Below are positions 405 to 49,463 of a stretch of 58,860 bases of DNA, one piece after another. The translations under genes were made by a program, and so were the position numbers. The notes under the pieces are model-generated. The model saw only the letters and a program-made list of their open reading frames with translations, was not told the DNA's origin and ran no database searches. Each line of letters begins with the position of its first letter. Positions within the stretch are counted from its first letter, which is position 1. The DNA lies in IMG/VR virus record IMGVR_UViG_3300042308_001616, positions 1 through 58,860 of that record; one strand, given 5' to 3'. The stretch is from a virus.

Positions 405-893
405 ATGAAAAAGATAAAAACATTCGAGAGTTTCGAAAAAGATACAGACACCAGGGGCCTGAGCAGGCAATACCTTTTTGAGACTTGTAATATACAAGAA
501 GTACTGGATATGCTACTCCGAGTTGCTTACGAAATTTATGAGAATCCTAAAAGTGATTTCGAGGAGGAAGAAGATGGACAGTTATTACTGATTGTTAATA
601 TAAGTTTTGGTGGTGGAAACTTTGCAAGTACACAGTTCGACACAAAGATACTTAGAAATATGTCAGTTGGATTTGAAGACCTCGCTTGGGAGTTCGAGGA
701 GCCGGTCGATAACGAGTTTTTCGAGCGAAATCAAAACGGTGATATTGAAATGGGTATGGACATAGGAGTGGTCTACAACGTAGGTGGTTGGGATCCTACA
801 CTACTAGACGAGGACACTTCCAACGCTTGCGGACTTATCTCCGAGAATCTTCCAGAATGGAACATCGACACGGTGAATTCCTGGGATTTATAG
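405..893 (+). CDS. Small acidic protein with capsid-targeting-like N-terminus
   Basis: 162 residues. An upstream in-frame ATG exists at 384, but the start at 405 (MKKIKTFESFEKD) is preferred because it puts a recognisable N-terminal motif at the very start and leaves the TATATACA motif outside the gene. The motif K-T-F-x-S-F-x-x-D resembles the capsid-targeting peptide of T4 internal proteins (MKTYQEFIAEA) and two other N-termini in this window (genes starting at 22179 and 49463), though here the terminal acidic residue is Asp rather than Glu. The rest is acidic, with no domain I recognise. It may be an internal head protein, but this is inference. Confidence 0.75.
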   Translation: MKKIKTFESFEKDTDTRGLSRQYLFETCNIQEVLDMLLRVAYEIYENPKSDFEEEEDGQLLLIVNISFGGGNFASTQFDTKILRNMSVGFEDLAWEFEEPVDNEFFERNQNGDIEMGMDIGVVYNVGGWDPTLLDEDTSNACGLISENLPEWNIDTVNSWDL

Positions 894-941: not shown

Positions 942-2048
942 ATGATAATAAATCTAAAATCAGAGACCGACTTATCCGGCTTCTACGTAGTATACGAAGG
1001 TTCGACAAACTTAGAAAAGAAAGGATGGTACGGCATATCGCACCTACTTGAGCACCTTATGTGTAAGAACTTCGACCACCTACAGGAGGACTTCGACAGG
1101 GACGGCATAGACTGGAATGCTTATACTTCTGGCAACGAAATCGTTTTTTACCTTACAGGACTTGAAGATAAAGTGAACAAATGGAAAGGTGAATTTATGG
1201 ATCTTCTCGGCGACTTCAACGTTACTAAGGCACAGTTTGAAAACGAAAGAAAGATTGTATTGGAAGAATATATGGACAGTTTTAATGACCAAACTTCTTT
1301 ACATATGCTCAATCTAAGTAGAAAACTTTTCAATGACTATGATCCAATTGGACTAAGAGAAGATCTTGAAAAATTGAAATTTATGGATTGTTTAAATTTC
1401 TATGAGTTACAATATGCAAAACCAACTAAAATAATAAATGTATCTAAAAAAGACTACAAAAACAACGAGTTAGATTTTGTAGACAGAAAAATTGTCAAAA
1501 GTACTGCATTTGGAAACCACAATGTGCCTCTCGAATTAGGAAATGAGTTCAAAGATAAAACATCGATAGTTATGTTGTCACCTATTATTGAGGAAGACTT
1601 TGCTTATGTACATTTCATAAACGCTATGTTGTCATTAGGTTTAAAATCACCTTTATATCAAGAGATAAGAGAAAACAGAGGACTTGTGTATTATATACAT
1701 TGTTACCAATCAAGAATGCACGAACAAGGTATAGTAACATTGGCAACACAAACATCTAACAAAAACTTTGATGCTGTTGTTGATGCAACCAAAAAAGTTC
1801 TTACAAATCCGAAGAAACACTTAACAAAAGATAGGTTCAACCTGGTGAAGGATTACTTCGAGGTTAGAAAGAAGAAAGATGAGATACTGAGATACAAAAA
1901 TGTAAATCAATGGATAAATCCAACTGGTTGGTCGGTTAATGAGATACTTGATGAAGTTAATCTTAAAAAGGTATTAGAGGTATACGATAAATACTTTGAT
2001 TTCGATAAGTTCTACATTTCTAGTGATAAAACTGAATTCAAAAAATAG
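942..2048 (+). CDS. M16-family zinc metallopeptidase (pitrilysin/processing-peptidase type)
   Basis: 368 residues. The inverted zinc motif HxxEH is present as H34-L-L-E37-H38, and the third ligand region, ERKIVLEEY, follows at residues 102-110 (E108 or E109), slightly closer than the usual 75-odd residues. The C-terminal half has the usual M16 signature RENRGLVYYIHCY near residue 240, so both halves of a single M16 domain pair are present. Such enzymes hydrolyse peptides within a closed chamber. Host versions trim peptides or process precursors. A phage role is unknown; processing of virion or host peptides is possible. It is a single-gene unit with a T4-late-like promoter motif upstream and an intrinsic terminator just after its TAG stop. 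Confidence 0.88.
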   Translation: MIINLKSETDLSGFYVVYEGSTNLEKKGWYGISHLLEHLMCKNFDHLQEDFDRDGIDWNAYTSGNEIVFYLTGLEDKVNKWKGEFMDLLGDFNVTKAQFENERKIVLEEYMDSFNDQTSLHMLNLSRKLFNDYDPIGLREDLEKLKFMDCLNFYELQYAKPTKIINVSKKDYKNNELDFVDRKIVKSTAFGNHNVPLELGNEFKDKTSIVMLSPIIEEDFAYVHFINAMLSLGLKSPLYQEIRENRGLVYYIHCYQSRMHEQGIVTLATQTSNKNFDAVVDATKKVLTNPKKHLTKDRFNLVKDYFEVRKKKDEILRYKNVNQWINPTGWSVNEILDEVNLKKVLEVYDKYFDFDKFYISSDKTEFKK

Positions 2049-2167: not shown

Positions 2168-2229
2168 TCCTTCTCCTTTTCACTCTGGTGCTGTTCTTTA
2201 ATGTATTCTAAGCGAGACTTATTTCCCAT
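2146..2229 (-). CDS. Tiny charged protein, 27 residues
   Basis: ATG at 2229 overlaps the last codons of the sirtuin gene in another frame; it reads MGNKSRLEYIKEQHQSEKE and ends at TGA (2146-2148). It overlaps the next tiny gene by 22 bases. The composition is charged and helical. Evidence is limited to position and composition, so it could be fortuitous. Confidence 0.3.
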   Translation of the reverse strand: MGNKSRLEYIKEQHQSEKEKECAGERT

Positions 2230-2935
2230 CATATTTTAGTATTTCTGCGATTTTGGACATTCCAATAGTTGCTGGTTCTTTTATGTGTTTAAAAAATGGT
2301 TTTCTAAACTCTGGTACATAGAAGTCGCCATTACTTGGATCTACGTAGAATATCTCACAATCTTCTTTGGTGAGAAAAGGTATTTCATTTGCAGGAAAAA
2401 CCTGCATAGAAGTTCCTACAATTATACATACATCACACTCGGTAGCAGCATCAGTTGCATTCTTTATATCATTACCATCGAGGTTTTCACCAAACCAAAT
2501 GATATGTGGACGAAGTTGTGCACCACGTGGACATTTGTCTCCGAGTTTTATATCACCATCACAATCGTATACCTCTGTCGAACCGGGGAAAGTCGAACGA
2601 GATTTTTTCAACTCACCATGTAGGTGAACTATATTGGTCGAACCGGCACGTTCGTGTAAGTCGTCTACATTTTGCGTAACTACAATTACATCAAAATTTT
2701 TTTCAAGATCTGCTATTATTTCGTGTGCTATGTTTGGTAATACAGATAAGAGTTGTTTACGTCTTGCGTTATAAAAATCGAGAACTAACTCACGATTCTT
2801 ACACCAAGCATCAATAGTGGCAACATCTTCAATACGGTGATTGTTCCACAAAGAATCTACGGAGTCGCGGAATGTCTCAATTCCACTCTCTTTAGAGACT
2901 CCTGCACCCGTGAATAAAAGTATTTTCTTTTTCAT
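2219..2935 (-). CDS. cobB: CobB-type sirtuin, NAD-dependent protein deacylase
   Basis: 238 residues. NAD-binding motifs are G10-A-G-V-S-K-E-S-G-I and T22... F-R; TQNVDDLHERAG follows at 88-98; the catalytic histidine is H106 in HLHGEL; LRPHIIWFGE and VGTSMQVFPA come later. Y55 and R58 (FYNARR) match the Tyr/Arg pair that lets CobB and SIRT5 accept succinyl-lysine. The zinc-binding cysteines are reduced: the first CxxC is missing and only DCDGD and DKCPRG remain, similar to E. coli CobB. It consumes NAD to deacylate lysines. It lies downstream of the secreted nuclease with its own Bacteroidota promoter. Other large phages such as KVP40 carry sirtuins; the target here is unknown. Confidence 0.92.
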   Translation of the reverse strand: MKKKILLFTGAGVSKESGIETFRDSVDSLWNNHRIEDVATIDAWCKNRELVLDFYNARRKQLLSVLPNIAHEIIADLEKNFDVIVVTQNVDDLHERAGSTNIVHLHGELKKSRSTFPGSTEVYDCDGDIKLGDKCPRGAQLRPHIIWFGENLDGNDIKNATDAATECDVCIIVGTSMQVFPANEIPFLTKEDCEIFYVDPSNGDFYVPEFRKPFFKHIKEPATIGMSKIAEILKYDGK

Positions 2936-2939
2936 TCTA

Positions 2940-2970
2940 CAAATATAAACAAAAATATTATTTTTTGAAA
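2940..2970 (-). promoter_or_regulatory. Bacteroidota-type promoter for the sirtuin gene
   Basis: Minus strand TTTC (2970-2967), 19 bases, TATATTTG (2947-2940). The -7 element ends four bases before the ATG at 2935 (TATATTTGTAGAATG), so the message would be leaderless or nearly so. The same TATATTTGTAG-N-ATG arrangement occurs at 58130-58144. Confidence 0.6.
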
Positions 2971-3614
2971 TTTATTATGATACCAACTTCCGTTCCAGAT
3001 TGCTTAGTCAAATCGATTATTGTTTTAAGATTAGTCTTAACACAAACACCATTTACGTTGGAACCCACGTAACAAACCATGTTTGACTTAGTTGAAACAA
3101 TTTTGTAAAATGTTGTTGGTATCTTTACCCTCGTACCCTTTACTCTTTTGGCATTCTTATCGTATATAACACCAGTTATTATTACCGCATCCTGTTTATT
3201 TTTCAATAAATACTTTATTACGGACTTTTCTAATTTGGCCCATTTACCACGGTTGAAAGATTTAATCTGTGGTGCTTGATTGAATAAACTAAACGAATGG
3301 TAATTCAATGTATCATCATAGGATGTTATATTAGATGGTGTAAGATGTCCTAAATCGAATCCTGTTTTGTTCAATGAATTCTTTTGATAAGGACCACCGG
3401 GCCACTCTTTGTGCCATTTATCACTTCTGTGTCCGTCTATCTTAGTTAGTTCGTAATATGTTACAAAATGTACAGATATGAGTGATGAGGTATCTTCGTC
3501 CAAATAGAAGGAAATATCTCCGTGATTTATTCGGAAGGTGGTACCCGAAACATCAACCGTCTGACCCAGAAGGAAGATAGGTACTAAAAGTAGTGTAATT
3601 AGTAATATTCTCAT
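2958..3614 (-). CDS. Secreted DNA/RNA non-specific endonuclease (EndoG/NucA family)
   Basis: 218 residues. The N-terminus MRILLITLLLVPIFLLGQ is a Sec signal peptide with no lipobox Cys, so export to the periplasm is predicted. The catalytic motif of the family, DRGH, appears as F-D-L-G-H-L near residue 112, and the metal-binding Asn lies in SLFNQAPQ near residue 133. The family cuts single- and double-stranded DNA and RNA using a His base and an Asn-bound magnesium. Leu replaces Arg in DRGH, a change tolerated in some members. In a phage it could break down nucleic acid outside the cytoplasm, including competing phage DNA, or mature in the host envelope; this is inference. It is divergent from the giant gene at 3638 with only 23 bases between starts. 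Confidence 0.85.
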   Translation of the reverse strand: MRILLITLLLVPIFLLGQTVDVSGTTFRINHGDISFYLDEDTSSLISVHFVTYYELTKIDGHRSDKWHKEWPGGPYQKNSLNKTGFDLGHLTPSNITSYDDTLNYHSFSLFNQAPQIKSFNRGKWAKLEKSVIKYLLKNKQDAVIITGVIYDKNAKRVKGTRVKIPTTFYKIVSTKSNMVCYVGSNVNGVCVKTNLKTIIDLTKQSGTEVGIIINFKK

Positions 3615-20239: not shown

Positions 20240-20575
20240 TCAGAACCTTTCACCTCTATCGATGTAGTAGGTATTGTTCTCTTCTATTATACTAAGATTA
20301 TCATGTACTTGTTGACAAAGTGTTCTGAAATCGAGTAGGTCTTTCTCTTCTAAGTCAAACCATTCACCACCAATTCTTTTGATACGAAAGTGTCTGTGTA
20401 AATGTGCCTCGATTTTGGTTCCCCATTTTGAGTTGAAAACATCAACAACCTCAAATACAGAAGAATTACCAGTTCTGAATTCAGATATCCTCTTCTCCAC
20501 ATCTCTACGAGTGTGACCTATTTTATAGACTGATTTTCCATTTGTCTCGGATGATATAAGATACACGTTAACCAT
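20240..20575 (-). CDS. T5orf172/GIY-YIG-type nuclease domain protein
   Basis: 111 residues. The opening VYLISSETNGKSVYKIGHT followed by VEKRISEFRTGN matches the T5orf172 branch of the GIY-YIG superfamily; KIEAHLHRHF and GGEWFDL near residues 54-77 supply the later conserved positions. Members are found as stand-alone phage proteins and in homing-type nucleases. There is no separate DNA-binding domain, so it may be stand-alone. It lies directly downstream of two short genes that look like broken pieces of a capsid gene, which makes a past homing or recombination event worth considering. A TATATAAG variant of the recurrent promoter-like motif sits three bases upstream of its ATG. Confidence 0.82.
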   Translation of the reverse strand: MVNVYLISSETNGKSVYKIGHTRRDVEKRISEFRTGNSSVFEVVDVFNSKWGTKIEAHLHRHFRIKRIGGEWFDLEEKDLLDFRTLCQQVHDNLSIIEENNTYYIDRGERF

Positions 20576-20609: not shown

Positions 20610-21038
20610 TTATTCGTTAGATTGTGTTCCGTAAGTGTAATCGAGATAGAATAAATCACCACGGGGTCCAGTATTGAAGTCTGGATGTTCGGTGATTTTC
20701 ATCTCTTCATATTCATTCCCTTCTATCAAAGAATCAATCTTTCGGTTTCGGTTCTCTGCTGCAACCTCTGCTTTTATCGATTCTAGTTCATCAGTCGTGT
20801 TACTATTCATAGGCACGACACTGACAAGGTCCATACCAATAGTCTGTGCTACAACTTTCATTGTCATAGGAAAAACCGATGGAAATGTGGTTTGTTCCAC
20901 CAAGTTGTCTGAAATAGTGGCCTCGTTGTCTGCGTGCATCTGTGCGTATTGTGACATCCAGGCGGCCTTTGATCCGGTCATACCCATTCCGGATATCACG
21001 GATGACCACTTATCAATCATCTTATCTCGTTCTTCCAT
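20610..21038 (-). CDS. Protein resembling the N-terminal arm of the T4-type major capsid protein (gp23)
   Basis: 142 residues. MIDKWSSVI (7-15) resembles the gp23 opening LLNKWKPLL; FPSVFPMTMKVVAQTI and GMDLVSVVPMN (52-78) resemble the gp23 stretch with MVRRAIPNLI and FDICGVQPMN; GPRGDLFYLDYTYG (124-137) resembles SPTGQVFALRAVYG. In gp23 the last two pieces are contiguous; here about 45 charged residues (79-123) separate them. The chain stops at YGTQSNE, where gp23 would continue for several hundred residues. So it cannot be a complete capsid subunit. It may be a remnant, a decoy or an adapted minor head protein. Comparison with gp23 is from memory. It overlaps the preceding 54-residue gene by 22 bases. 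Confidence 0.75.
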   Translation of the reverse strand: MEERDKMIDKWSSVISGMGMTGSKAAWMSQYAQMHADNEATISDNLVEQTTFPSVFPMTMKVVAQTIGMDLVSVVPMNSNTTDELESIKAEVAAENRNRKIDSLIEGNEYEEMKITEHPDFNTGPRGDLFYLDYTYGTQSNE

Positions 21039-21225: not shown

Positions 21226-22179
21226 CTATTTTAGCTTTACGTGAATATAGAGCCATTGTGATAAAGCCTTGACACTTATCAGAACTTTATCAGACCATTT
21301 CTTAGTAGATACCCAAGAAACAAAGTTTGATTTAAGGTTTTCAAACTCACCAGAATCCAAACTTCCGTTGTCCCATTTACCAACACCTTGATATCCAAAA
21401 CTTAGTATCTTATCGGTCAATGTAATTGGCATAGTTGTGTCATATTGACCAGGTGAATATTCTATCATATCATTCTTTATAGAACAAAGTGTAGATATAT
21501 CAGTATTAGTGAGATTCACTAATTCCTTTTTTAGTGAGAATGCAGATTTCAAATCAAGAGTAGTTATCCACTTTATTGCCGAAGTATTTACTTTAAAACT
21601 ACCAAATGATGTAAGTACGTCCTCGGACATAGTTCCAAATTCGATACTCGAGTCACACTTCAATCCAAAGTAAAGTATTGTTTCGTTGTTTGTATAATCT
21701 ACATTATCTACAAACCTAGATAGTGAAGAATAGCGAGCAATAACTGCCTTCACTGTATTAGTCTCAATATGTGAAGAACGATAAAAAAGTAAAAAGTCCT
21801 TAGGAGAAATAGAAAAGTCTGGAACAACGTCTTTCTGACCAAGTGCGGTCATAACTTTTAGAAAACTTGTAAATGCACCTTTTCCACCAGGTGTAAGATC
21901 TACGGCTTCTGTTATTGGTTCTGTCTCGGTAGAGAATTTAACAACCGGTTCTTTCTCACGCACACCATTAGTCTGGTAATCTTTAACCAATTTCTCTATC
22001 TCTCTTTTATCCCAGTCACCTAGAAGACCTACCGCATTTGAAAGACTTATATCTGGTGGTGTTTCACCGATAAACCTATCGACTATGTTTCTTACATACT
22101 CATCGTCTTTGTAGAGTGGTAGTAGCCAGTCACCTAATTTATCTTCGAATATGAACTGATTGTATTTCTTTATTATCAT
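21226..22179 (-). CDS. Hypothetical protein with capsid-targeting-like N-terminus, 317 residues
   Basis: The N-terminus MIIKKYNQFIFED carries Y-x-Q-F-I-x-E at the same spacing as the T4 internal-protein targeting peptide (Y-Q-E-F-I-A-E, cut after Glu by the prohead protease gp21). If the same rule holds, cutting would fall after E12. The remaining chain has no fold I recognise; GKWDNGSLDSGEFENL near residue 272 looks like one isolated copy of the Trp-x-x-Gly repeat. It is upstream of the gp23-like fragments and downstream of the collagen-bearing structural gene. An injected or head-packaged protein is inferred. Confidence 0.8.
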   Translation of the reverse strand: MIIKKYNQFIFEDKLGDWLLPLYKDDEYVRNIVDRFIGETPPDISLSNAVGLLGDWDKREIEKLVKDYQTNGVREKEPVVKFSTETEPITEAVDLTPGGKGAFTSFLKVMTALGQKDVVPDFSISPKDFLLFYRSSHIETNTVKAVIARYSSLSRFVDNVDYTNNETILYFGLKCDSSIEFGTMSEDVLTSFGSFKVNTSAIKWITTLDLKSAFSLKKELVNLTNTDISTLCSIKNDMIEYSPGQYDTTMPITLTDKILSFGYQGVGKWDNGSLDSGEFENLKSNFVSWVSTKKWSDKVLISVKALSQWLYIHVKLK

Positions 22180-22195
22180 TATAACTTTCTTGTTT

Positions 22196-25100
22196 TTATT
22201 CGAATGAACTTATTTGTCCGAGAACCTGTGTCCAAACACCTTCACTCCTAAGGAACGTGAATCCAACAATATCAACACCGTTTGGTGTCACAGAATATGT
22301 ACCGTTTGCCCACTTCACAGTTTGTGTAGTACCATCTACTTTGACTACGTTTGGTGCATAAGCATTATTACCCTGACTTATTAATATATTAGTAGTTATA
22401 GCTCTATTATTCGTAATCGGCATATTTACAAAGTTTGCAGTATAATCATTAGATGCCGTACCGTGGTACCAAACAGACCCAGTTGTGAAATCGTAAATTA
22501 CATCTGCTGCAGTTGCACCAAAAGATGTAGTAACTACCTCAGAAGTTTGTTGTAATAGTGTATGTCCTTGTAAATTGGTATTTCCATTGACCGTAAGTGA
22601 AGATCCATCAAAAGTAATATTGGATTCTGCATTGGCAGTGTTGGAAGTACCATCTGATGTTAATATTCTATTATTAGAGTAATTAGATATTGAGTTGAAA
22701 CCAGTTCCAATAGATCCGGTAGGATATAATCGGAATTCAGAGAAATTGTAATCGCGTGATAAAATACCTAAGTAATCATTATATTCAAAGAATATAGAGA
22801 AATTTATTAGATTACCTGTGTCACCACCATAATAGTCCTCTATCACTAAATGCCAATCTCCGGTTGTTGGTAGTCCTGCTAACAAATCAGTCAAATTAGA
22901 TACCGTAGATACGTTAGGTGCATCTCCTAATCCTATTCCAGCATTCCAATAGAATGTACCGGTGTGTGGTGAGGATGCACCATTTATATTTGGATATGTA
23001 TTTTTGGATGTAAATACCGTATTGGTCATATTATCAGAACCACCATTCTGTAGATTGTAAAGGTTAATTATTTGTCCGGAAGGTGATACTAAGTTAATTA
23101 ATAAATCTCCTAAGTATGTGTGTGTAAGGTTTATCTCAACAAAAATATCCGTTGGTGAACTAACCAATGGGACGCTTACGGTTCCACCAGTATAAATAGG
23201 TAATCCATCAGTATTATCTATTATTGGATTATTAAGAGTACCAGAAGAATATTTAGTAGATACTACATTGGTAGGGATTGGTCCTGGTTGAACAACCGTT
23301 TCGGATACAAATCTATATGCTAGTGAAGTATTACTAAATGGACAGGTGTGTAAAGTGACACCATTTATACTATAAAATACGGTTTGTGTATCGCTATAAA
23401 TTGATAGTACATCACCTTCTTGGTATATTTGTGTATATGTAACAACACCACCAGTGGTATTGTAAATAATCATATTACCATCCGTTAGTGTATTATATGT
23501 GAGTTCAACGTGTGCCGACCATGCACCAACACTATTCTTAAATCCAAGTTTTATTCTATCAGTATCATCAATCATAATTGGTATGGTGACTTGTACGAAT
23601 AAACCTTGACTACCTGGAAACAATTCTTTCGTTTTTAGAAACTGATCTTTTCCTTTCTCTATTCCAGAGTGGAAAGTATAATCCGAATCATTATTTATAG
23701 TGATAAGGCTTCCAGTACTACCAAATGTTGTAAATGAAGATGATGATGAATTATTGTCGAACTCCAAAGAAACTAAACTTTGTCCCGGAAATAAAGGATC
23801 TACCTCTATAGAGTAAGAAAGTCCTTTTATGTTATTATAATTTAATCTACTAGCAATAGTAGAGTTTACACCATAACCTTTATTTATCCAAAAAGAGCTA
23901 GCAGTTGCGGTTTCAATCTCTCTGGTTATAGTATCGGATGTTTTTAGAAAAGAGAATCCCTTTCCATATTCGTAATTCCTCTCAATACTGGTTATCATCT
24001 TACCATTAGGAAAAAGATTGACCTCCCATATAATCTCAGATTGTCCAGGAACTGAAGGTCCTGTAGATGAGGTTGCACCCTCATATCTTATGGTAAACTG
24101 ATCACCACTGGTTTTGGTATATAATTTCTGTATGGATCTATCACCTGCCTCTATAAAAATACCTGGTAAAGGTGGATTTTTCTCAGTATATCCTGCAAAC
24201 GCGGAGTATCCAGCACCAAAAGTTATAAAACTATTAGATCCAACATATGCCGTTGAGTAAGTATTTCCCATAAAAGAAACAACAAATGGTAGATTGATAG
24301 TAAAGAAAGCATCATCGAAATTTCCACTGACTGTTCCATGTATAGGATCTACATATATTCCCATTGATGCACTACCAATTATAGAATATTCCATTGTCTC
24401 ATAATCATTGAAACTTATATTAAGTGTCTGATTTCTCCACTCTAATACGTCGGTTCCCTCTTTATAAGTAAGAACTTGTCCAACCTGACCTGCCTTTCTT
24501 GGTAAAATATAGTTATCATCAATATTTATAATACCCTTTACGAATAATTCTGTATTAGGTGAAAATAATGTAACTTCGGAAAATTTATTTATTGAAGAGA
24601 ATGTATGACCACTCACGGTAATAATTGAATGTGCGGTCAAATCAAGTAACGTATTTTGTATAGTTACACCAGAAACGTTATAAGTCTCTAGTGAGTATGC
24701 AAAATCTGAGTTAGTCATATTGAACGATGCGTTCTGTATAGACCAATTTCCGTATGTTGAAACAGGTAATGATAACTGGTCAAAAGACATAAGGAATGCA
24801 TTATGAACCGGTGTATCACCTTCTTTAGTTAGACCTGCTATGTATATGTTTTTATTATCGGATGAAGAAGTAATAACTTTATGACCTGATGCAAACATTG
24901 TAGGTATATTGGCCCAAACGCTATCTCTAAATTGTGTACCAACATATTGTTGCCAAACTATATCACCACTTGGCGTAAGTTTGAATATGACTAAATCTGT
25001 AGATGGTCTAGGTGGTGTACTACTTGTAGATTGTGTAGATATGGCAAATATAGAACCAACACTATTCACAATAACTGCTACTATACCTCTATTAAAAGAA

Positions 25101-26539
25101 TCAACTGATTTAGTCCAGATTTGATTTCCTGAAAAGTCTAACTTAGTTATAAAGTTATTGTAAGGTCCAGTCGGTGGATTGCCTGGTATAGGATCGAAAT
25201 TTATATATCCACCAATATAAACATTTGAGTTATCATCGATGGCAATTGATAAACCTTCTTGATAGGTATTATCATTTCCTATCAATCTGGCCCATATCTT
25301 ATTACCAGATTTGTCATATTTTGAAACAAAGACATCTCCTCTTGGATTAGTTGAGTTACCTAAATTTATTACGGAACCAACGACATAGATATAACCCTCT
25401 TTGTACTCACATTGGAATCCTCTATCTGTGAATCCAACACCACCATCAACGAATTTATTCCATTCAACGGTGTTAGTAGTTGTGTTTATCTTTCCGAAGA
25501 TAAGGTCATAATAATTTCCAAAATTCTTCTGAATACCTACATAATAAACATTATCATCTTCATCGACTGCTATATCGGAACCATAAGGTATATTATAAAG
25601 TGGTGCATCAATTGACGTAGTATAATCTATCACCCACAATTTTTTGATGTATCCATCTTTGTGTAGTTTTGCAATTGCTATATTACCAAAACTATCAGGA
25701 TCCGATTGGTCGGACATCAACACATAAAGATGGTCGTTTTTATAAACAATAGATTCGCCTTGCGAATATCTGTCAATTTGACGTTGCCATATTATATTTC
25801 CGTTAGGTTCTGATTTGGTAACGAATGTATAAAAAGAAGTATAATCACCACCAGTGGTGTATATATTTCCATCAGTATCAATTGTAACTCCTGAATTCCA
25901 TATCTCATCAGTGGTATTATTCTTAGGACCATAGTTCTGAAGCCAACCATCTCTGTCTATTTTAAAGAGTAAGTTTCCACTTCCCTTAGTAATTATTTCA
26001 ATGTCTTTGTTATCTACGGTTGCATATATTGTCTGACCAGAAACTAAAAGTTCATCTGTATCACCGAATGCCAAAGGACCTGTAGGTCCAATTGGACCAA
26101 TTAACGAATTCAAATAATCTTGTTGAGTACCAACGTTATATTGTAACCAAACCTGATATGCACTAAGTCCGGTATTTCCCTGTACTCCTTGTGGTCCATC
26201 AGGACCTGTTAATCCAATTGATCCGGTAGGACCTTTTGTGTAGAATTGTGCCTCTAACTCAACTGCTTGTTGTATCCAAGAAGGAACGTTTGTGTTCTTT
26301 ATGGTGTCTATATAGTCCTGAAGTTTTTTAGCAGCAAGTACTGCTTCATTACCTGTACTAAATTCTAGTATCGTTTGTGATGACTCAAGTGAGACGTAAA
26401 CAATGTTATTCTTTAGATATACGGTCTTTACCACAAACGGGTTAAGTATGTATCTAAGCACCTCCGAGTTGTCGTAGATTCTTATGGTTTTCTCACCCGC
26501 AACAAGCGGCTTTAGGAATTTTTCGTAGCTGAAGTTCAT
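22196..26539 (-). CDS. Giant modular virion protein: collagen, beta-propeller, SPRY-like and P domains
   Basis: 1,447 residues. In order: an N-terminal module with FLKPL and a beta/alpha unit (1-84) shared with the protein at 43397-44251; collagen-like G-x-y triplets (103-123 and 148-154) around GLSAYQVW...NSLIGP, a motif seen in many phage tail proteins; a propeller of the bacterial SBBP type (about 200-560, repeats such as AIDDNSNVYIGGY and KLDFSGNQIW); a concanavalin/SPRY-like stretch (GDVLSIYSDTQTVFYSING); a P domain (about 1127-1253, TYLGDLLINLVSPSG); and a C-terminal domain (VWYHGTASNDYTANF, NNRAITTNI, GVDIVGFTFLRSEGVW) of a type common at the ends of marine T4-like structural proteins. 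It is likely a receptor-binding or whisker-type virion protein. Confidence 0.88.
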   Translation of the reverse strand: MNFSYEKFLKPLVAGEKTIRIYDNSEVLRYILNPFVVKTVYLKNNIVYVSLESSQTILEFSTGNEAVLAAKKLQDYIDTIKNTNVPSWIQQAVELEAQFYTKGPTGSIGLTGPDGPQGVQGNTGLSAYQVWLQYNVGTQQDYLNSLIGPIGPTGPLAFGDTDELLVSGQTIYATVDNKDIEIITKGSGNLLFKIDRDGWLQNYGPKNNTTDEIWNSGVTIDTDGNIYTTGGDYTSFYTFVTKSEPNGNIIWQRQIDRYSQGESIVYKNDHLYVLMSDQSDPDSFGNIAIAKLHKDGYIKKLWVIDYTTSIDAPLYNIPYGSDIAVDEDDNVYYVGIQKNFGNYYDLIFGKINTTTNTVEWNKFVDGGVGFTDRGFQCEYKEGYIYVVGSVINLGNSTNPRGDVFVSKYDKSGNKIWARLIGNDNTYQEGLSIAIDDNSNVYIGGYINFDPIPGNPPTGPYNNFITKLDFSGNQIWTKSVDSFNRGIVAVIVNSVGSIFAISTQSTSSTPPRPSTDLVIFKLTPSGDIVWQQYVGTQFRDSVWANIPTMFASGHKVITSSSDNKNIYIAGLTKEGDTPVHNAFLMSFDQLSLPVSTYGNWSIQNASFNMTNSDFAYSLETYNVSGVTIQNTLLDLTAHSIITVSGHTFSSINKFSEVTLFSPNTELFVKGIINIDDNYILPRKAGQVGQVLTYKEGTDVLEWRNQTLNISFNDYETMEYSIIGSASMGIYVDPIHGTVSGNFDDAFFTINLPFVVSFMGNTYSTAYVGSNSFITFGAGYSAFAGYTEKNPPLPGIFIEAGDRSIQKLYTKTSGDQFTIRYEGATSSTGPSVPGQSEIIWEVNLFPNGKMITSIERNYEYGKGFSFLKTSDTITREIETATASSFWINKGYGVNSTIASRLNYNNIKGLSYSIEVDPLFPGQSLVSLEFDNNSSSSSFTTFGSTGSLITINNDSDYTFHSGIEKGKDQFLKTKELFPGSQGLFVQVTIPIMIDDTDRIKLGFKNSVGAWSAHVELTYNTLTDGNMIIYNTTGGVVTYTQIYQEGDVLSIYSDTQTVFYSINGVTLHTCPFSNTSLAYRFVSETVVQPGPIPTNVVSTKYSSGTLNNPIIDNTDGLPIYTGGTVSVPLVSSPTDIFVEINLTHTYLGDLLINLVSPSGQIINLYNLQNGGSDNMTNTVFTSKNTYPNINGASSPHTGTFYWNAGIGLGDAPNVSTVSNLTDLLAGLPTTGDWHLVIEDYYGGDTGNLINFSIFFEYNDYLGILSRDYNFSEFRLYPTGSIGTGFNSISNYSNNRILTSDGTSNTANAESNITFDGSSLTVNGNTNLQGHTLLQQTSEVVTTSFGATAADVIYDFTTGSVWYHGTASNDYTANFVNMPITNNRAITTNILISQGNNAYAPNVVKVDGTTQTVKWANGTYSVTPNGVDIVGFTFLRSEGVWTQVLGQISSFE

Positions 26540-26558: not shown

Positions 26559-26566
26559 TGTATATA
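26559..26566 (-). promoter_or_regulatory. TATATACA motif upstream of the collagen/P-domain gene
   Basis: Minus strand AATAATATATACACAAAG, 19 bases before the ATG at 26539, the same string as before the genes starting at 405 and 49463. Confidence 0.45.
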
Positions 26567-26602
26567 TTATTTTCTGAAATACACATGCCGATAAAAAGGC
26601 AA

Positions 26603-49076: not shown

Positions 49077-49463
49077 TTATTTAGCCAACATTCCAACTAT
49101 TTCCGTTATGGCACGTTTAGTTGACGCCATTATATATTTGTAAGTTCCTAATGAATTTAGTTCATCTGGTGATTCTGAAAAGAATTTTATTTTGTTAAGT
49201 AATTCGTCTATCTCGTTTTCATATTTTAGCCAAAAGTCGTAAACCTGGTCATCATTGACGAGACCCTCTATCTTCATATCAGGTGATTTTGGATATTTCT
49301 CTGCAAATTCTTTAACACTAAGTTCTTTTATTGTTGCATCATCAGAATTTTCAATAGTTGTCTCTATCATTTTCTGTATGTCACTACTAATACCTTCAAA
49401 GTCAGAAGGATCGATTACTTCTTGTGACTCATTAACAAATTGTTTGTATCTCTTTATTGCCAT
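49077..49463 (-). CDS. Small acidic protein with capsid-targeting-like N-terminus, 128 residues
   Basis: It starts MAIKRYKQFVNESQEVI. Y-x-Q-F-V-x-E matches the T4 internal-protein targeting peptide (Y-Q-E-F-I-A-E) in identity and spacing, predicting a prohead-protease cut after E12. The rest is acidic and helical (DIQKMIETTIENSDDATIKE, ENEIDELLNKIKFF) with no known fold. A TATATACA motif sits two bases before the ATG in the same string that precedes the gene at 405, which has a similar N-terminus. A packaged internal protein is the best guess. Confidence 0.78.
   Translation of the reverse strand: MAIKRYKQFVNESQEVIDPSDFEGISSDIQKMIETTIENSDDATIKELSVKEFAEKYPKSPDMKIEGLVNDDQVYDFWLKYENEIDELLNKIKFFSESPDELNSLGTYKYIMASTKRAITEIVGMLAK

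Follow-up and report, generated by a model that had tools for sequence, protein, structure and literature searches.

The capsid-targeting sequence of the T4 internal proteins IPI, IPII and IPIII was reportedly described by Mullaney and Black in 1996, and T4 Alt is an ejected ADP-ribosyltransferase (ART). The genes ipII and ipIII both start MKTYQEFIAEA; ipI starts MKTFKEF and reaches ITE/A only later (read from AF158101; a slash marks a cleavage point, known or predicted). Mutagenesis of the IPIII tag assigned residues 4 and 7 to targeting and residues 8 and 10 to processing (PMC9026906). In Sphingomonas phage PAU, N-terminal sequencing indicated that the major capsid protein (MCP) is trimmed from 585 to 520 residues (PMC5646251), which fits a cut at ALME64/N65 within one residue. 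PAU (JQ362498) also carries an N-terminal tag, MK[ST][LI]xxLYE, found on about 20 genes (18 of 300 N-termini, 0.04 expected), including the scaffold and four of the five proteins that the depositors named "internal capsid protein". The depositors do not state the basis of these names, which were probably not derived from the tag, because one named protein lacks it and many tagged proteins bear no such note. In the giant phages phiKZ and SPN3US, many inner-body or ejection proteins are internal, with propeptides of mostly 100–250 residues that are cut at x-x-E (motif S/A-x-E), often in several steps (PMC10052503, PMC5694885).

The stretch analyzed here (the window, 58,860 nucleotides) makes up the initial 58.9 kb of a viral contig of 248,751 bases, and the whole genome (~249 kb) is Mahaphage-like. 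Its capsid protein is closest to those of LR756502 and LR745206 (72–73% identity), followed by LR756504, LR756501, and LR756503 (53% identity). These relatives are uncultured phages of 634–735 kb (LR745206, 634 kb), which we take to be Mahaphage genomes. The five genomes above 634 kb described in PMC7162821 are all Mahaphages with predicted Bacteroidetes hosts. No description of a capsid-targeting motif in Mahaphages was found in the literature searched. No near-identical DNA to the window was present in the phage collection.

The first-pass annotation placed a motif Y-x-Q-F-I-x-E, in the spacing of T4 Y-Q-E-F-I-A-E, at positions 22141–22179. The motif is present on the minus strand, where the reverse complement of this segment (22179–22141) reads MIIKKYNQFIFED, the start of a 317-aa open reading frame (ORF), and its Y, F, I, and E align with those of T4. 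The forward strand of the same segment does not encode the peptide, and its reading from 22141 is full of stops. A single-sequence search of viral contigs returned no homologs of the 317-aa protein, but an alignment-based search gave nine from IMG/VR; together with two from the phage collection and the window copy, the family comprises 12 members, and searches of Pfam and PHROGs assigned it to no family. K4, Y6, F9, I10, and E12 (K-x-Y-x-x-F-I-x-E) are invariant in all 12, and their codons vary synonymously. The T4 targeting residues Y4 and F7 correspond to Y6 and F9 of MIIKKYNQFIFE, and the processing residues I8 and E10 to I10 and E12, at the same spacing; for the latter pair only the consensus is observed, and the cut itself is inferred. 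Residues 1–10 are unstructured in the AlphaFold model. Directly after E12 follows a junction that varies in length by up to seven residues among family members; the window copy has Asp and then Lys at this point, and Ala, Ser, or Asn is more usual at P1' in the homologs. The sequence case that this N-terminus is a T4-type capsid-targeting sequence is strong, and we hold the assignment to be highly probable.

Table 1. Features of the window that bear on the tagged 317-aa protein (coordinates refer to the window).
Feature	Position	Strand	Basis or remark
317-aa protein with capsid-targeting-like N-terminus, function unknown	21226–22179	-	ORF; 11 homologs, 45–54% identity; no Pfam or PHROG family
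Capsid-targeting-like sequence, residues 1–12 (MIIKKYNQFIFE), predicted cut after E12	22144–22179	-	Invariant residues in homologs; T4 spacing; AlphaFold
Residues 13–91, probably the second half of a propeptide, with a junction of variable length, a small helical domain, and a disordered linker	21907–22143	-	Junction length variation; pLDDT <50 at residues 74–96
Second predicted protease site, I89-T90-E91/A92	21904–21915	-	[LI]xE/[SANI] in linker of 12/12 homologs
Residues 92–317: predicted folded mature domain, function unknown	21229–21906	-	High-confidence AlphaFold fold
Second tag in the window, MAIKRYKQFVNE before S (gene 49077–49463)	49428–49463	-	Syntenic homologs MIKKYLQFIKEADE, MIKRYSQFIKEADE
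Weaker third N-terminus of the tag type, MKKIKTFESFEKD, provided that translation starts at the ATG at 405	405–893	+	Box AATATATAC just upstream
142-aa protein like the MCP N-arm, adjoining the 317-aa gene	20610–21038	-	Weak Pfam Gp23 match; short gene conserved in L006 and L007
ATATATAC box upstream of preceding gene 22196–26539 (16 nt from the 317-aa gene); putative late promoter of both	26560–26567	-	

A second candidate site, not previously noted, lies at about residue 91 in every homolog. Residues 74–96 form the only other low-confidence segment of the model, and although the sequence of this linker is variable, all 12 homologs keep [LI]xE followed by S, A, N, or I (PITE/A in the window copy). 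In 20,000 linker shuffles, the best result was 9 of 12 members with a site and none reached 12, an optimistic figure given that homologous sequences are related to one another. The propeptide may thus span 91 residues rather than 12. This modifies what the first-pass annotation had proposed: its capsid-targeting reading gained support from the 12 homologs, from some 30 other tagged proteins, and from a T4 control (both described below), but the mature N-terminus that it placed at residue 13 may instead be residue 92, given that the E91 consensus is kept throughout the family. We consider a propeptide of 91 residues, removed in two steps, most likely, with residues 92–317 as the mature domain, so a peptide starting at residue 13 may be only an intermediate. 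By our own estimate, inferred cleavage is likely at E12 and marginally favored at E91. The family does not show the phiKZ-type motif S/A-x-E, as every homolog has I or L in position P3 of both sites.

The tag is not confined to this protein. We counted pattern matches within the first 16 residues of every ORF and compared them with the counts in internal windows and in shuffled sequences. The strict T4-derived pattern [YFW]xx[FYL][ILVFM]x[ED] occurred in 12–13 genes of this genome against 2–3 expected (P = 2e-6); by shuffling, 12 matches compared with about 2 (maximum 8 in 1,000 shuffles), and a second count gave 13 against 2.5. The form [KR]x[FYW]xx[FYW] was found at 28 of 270 N-termini (3.9 expected, P = 8e-16), and the union of patterns of the capsid-targeting type at 34 of 270 (6.1 expected, P = 1e-15). 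In LR745206, this union matched 85 of 834 N-termini (21 expected, P = 2e-26). Past residue 16, the tagged proteins are unrelated to one another, falling into 33 clusters for 34 proteins here and 79 for 85 in LR745206. An unsupervised search for enriched N-terminal triplets in this phage returned KxYxxF and KxFxxF as its top signals. The comparison with other jumbo phages by motif search, which the first-pass annotation had proposed as a check, revealed the same excess in LR756501, LR756504, and LR756500 as well as LR745206, but none in pT24 and at most a weak one in PTm1 and MA9V-2. As a positive control, the same two patterns applied to a 49-kb stretch of T4 yielded four matches in 71 ORFs, namely IPI, IPII, IPIII, and one homing endonuclease (a false positive). 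In 80 short MCP loci, the K-x-aromatic form was enriched 7.7-fold and the strict T4 pattern only 1.5-fold, the latter owing to chance occurrences in internal windows. Individual calls remain uncertain, as about 6 of the 34 are expected by chance, and in many weaker copies (e.g. MKxLKTFES) there is no clean [IL]xE site.

The machinery that such a tag would require is encoded in the same genome. The capsid-targeting prediction was to be abandoned if the genome lacked a gp21-like protease; an S77/gp21-like protease (genome 97444–99543, minus strand; PF03420, E 2.7e-5) adjoins a gp23-like MCP (95645–97357, E 4e-27). The PF03420 match, at 20.8 bits, is under the Pfam cut-off of 27, and the LR756500 relative reaches E 2e-12 (44.8 bits). 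The MCP has a consensus site, SINE/N, at residues 41–44, where cleavage is predicted only. The protease continues into a scaffold-like region of ten near-perfect 14-residue repeats, YSEY[ILV]AE[NH]LDKNI[AS], with three further repeats that are weaker. The motif aromatic-x-x-aromatic-[ILV]-x-E is common to tag and repeat; binding between the two is inferred. Scored on all proteins, a profile built from the repeats alone enriched N-termini 6.8-fold in this genome and 10-fold in LR745206 (at the highest threshold), ranked the N-terminus of the 317-aa protein fourth in this genome, and gave no comparable N-terminal excess in PAU, PTm1, or MA9V-2. This suggests, without showing it, that the tag acts as a mimic of a single scaffold repeat. 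Fusion of the protease to a scaffold-like region with 14-aa tandem repeats was also seen in LR756501 and LR756504, and in degenerate form in LR756500. A further tagged protein (genome 219592–219876, minus strand) contains SGMGPVSNAVVGA, close to the MCP segment AGMGPVSNATVGS just after the predicted cleavage site.

We hypothesize that the Y-x-x-F face of the tag docks the protein onto the prohead core during head assembly, the core being made of YSEYIAENLDKNIA repeats, which stand in tandem in one protein with the gp21-like protease and one of which the tag would mimic. The protease would recognize [IL]-x-E and cut behind it, at E12 and probably a second time at E91, so that residues 92–317 are released inside the head, where the domain would be packaged with the DNA and would probably enter the host like the T4 internal proteins. 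About 30 unrelated proteins, including a putative ADP-ribosyltransferase, may use the same system. The resemblance to T4 extends to a tag of 10–19 N-terminal residues (K-x-[YF]-x-x-F-I-x-E), a gp21-family protease, a gp23-family MCP, and unrelated cargo behind a single tag, with an ART among the tagged proteins. In contrast to T4, which tags a few genes, about 30 to 85 are tagged per genome here, protease and scaffold-like repeats are fused into a single protein, in which the 14-aa repeats are similar to the tag, and residue 91 of the window protein marks a second conserved site. PAU (internal capsid proteins gp142, gp154, gp199, gp270) shares related gp23 and S77 head genes and a common short N-terminal tag ending in E on its roughly 20 genes, but its tag is of the MK[ST][LI]xxLYE type and its protease and scaffold are separate genes. 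The likeness to phiKZ and SPN3US lies in giant phages with many internal proteins and N-terminal propeptides cut at x-x-E; the difference lies in P3 (I/L/V here), the 12-residue tag, and the gp23-like MCP.

One rival is a chance or compositional likeness, on which lysine-rich aromatic N-termini would simply be common in these AT-rich Bacteroidetes phages; the patterns are short, with about 6 chance matches expected in this genome. We find it scarcely credible: internal windows, windows at internal methionines, and residue shuffles all scored far lower, other Bacteroidetes phages showed little or no excess, and the tag is invariant across 12 homologs. As an explanation of the whole group, chance is already refuted; for single weak copies it is still possible. 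The shared N-terminus could also sort proteins to a phage structure other than the capsid core, such as a replication compartment, the tail, or a membrane. The clustering of the gene with large tail/baseplate-type genes would fit such sorting, and packaging is inferred without measurement; we nevertheless judge it improbable, considering that the T4 match falls on residues of known function, that the tag resembles the phage's own scaffold repeats and ends at a protease consensus, and that the equivalent tag in PAU is carried by internal capsid proteins and by the scaffold.

Targeting to the core does not by itself make the protein an injected effector; it may be a core or scaffold component, or may keep its tag. 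T4 gp67 and gp68 are core proteins that are degraded at maturation, the PAU scaffold carries the PAU tag, and the second site at E91 makes more than one cut likely. The 225-residue C-terminal domain is nevertheless predicted to be well folded, is conserved, and contains few consensus sites, in contrast to a core protein that is shredded, which leaves the core-component explanation possible but, in our view, rather unlikely. Returning to capsid targeting with release of a mature protein, packaging of the 317-aa protein is strongly supported by sequence evidence but still inferred, as there is no Mahaphage virion proteomics, and delivery into the host, a further inference, we regard as evenly balanced. 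Foldseek with the mature domain found no PDB match below E = 0.01; the domain has one viral homolog. Membership in the T4 IPI–III or Alt families received no support from Pfam, PHROGs, or a significant PDB fold match. Several weak and partial Foldseek matches to histidine-kinase ATPase domains were not counted as evidence. A role in counter-defence or host takeover is a first guess, made by analogy with IPI and Alt and without direct evidence.

Among the other tagged proteins with a recognizable domain are the putative ADP-ribosyltransferase (genome 86038–86520, plus strand; ART-PolyVal, E 1.5e-5), which is of the class of T4 Alt, a DHH-like protein, and a GH108 endolysin-like protein. The GH108-like enzyme is not an obvious internal protein and counts against the packaging reading. 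The tagged gene 182625–184517 has an untagged homolog in LR745206, as expected for a module that is gained or lost. The ART-PolyVal protein is a possible functional counterpart of Alt. The 317-aa gene belongs to a cluster conserved in LR745206 and LR756502, in which it stands between a homolog of the 385/398-aa gene and the capsid-N-arm-like gene; the large genes beside it differ. The short N-arm-like protein perhaps represents a second route into the head or an assembly regulator. That the gp23-like pieces adjoining the 317-aa gene are a broken capsid gene is ruled out by an intact short gene in relatives (L006, 21237–21710; L007, 21344–21841). By eye, the window also encodes a GIY-YIG/T5orf172-type nuclease-like ORF downstream of the N-arm-like gene (20240–20575, minus strand; also in L006), an M16-like peptidase (942–2048, plus strand), a Sir2-like protein (2219–2935, minus strand), and a nuclease-like protein with a signal peptide (2958–3614, minus strand).

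A short promoter-like box accompanies many of these genes. In nine of the 11 homologs, the gene has a AATATATA box of its own, some 12 nt ahead of the ATG; for the window copy, the box instead lies at -28 of the preceding gene. Of 56 tag-like genes in this genome, 20 have a TATATA[ACG] box no more than 25 nt away, compared with 30 of 200 other genes (p = 9e-4). The capsid, protease, and sheath genes each have one within 60 nt, and the box also precedes many untagged genes. That it is a late promoter is an inference. Host-type early promoters did not separate tagged from untagged genes in this genome. The AATATATA[ACG] box was also observed 10–12 nt before the ATG of many genes (e.g. genome 86534, 182625, and 215514, and L171–L179), and, if it is a promoter, would imply leaderless late transcripts.

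What huge phages bring into a cell besides DNA is largely unknown, and a readable tag provides a list of candidates, about 30 in this genome and about 85 in LR745206. As nearly all of these are of unknown function, proteins of counter-defence and host takeover are likely to be found among them. We lean slightly towards the broader proposal that the Mahaphage clade, which includes the largest known phages, packages dozens of different proteins, up to about one-tenth of its genes, in the capsid, with a detached copy of its own scaffold repeat serving as the N-terminal tag. If this is true, tag and scaffold changed together in each lineage, and almost any gene could become an injected effector by the addition of about 12 codons. 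The likeness between tag and repeat also provides a mechanism of capsid targeting that can be put to the test, and it may open a route to loading foreign proteins into very large capsids. Our results suggest that huge phages may load their heads with dozens of proteins for delivery to the host, the majority of them without a known function.
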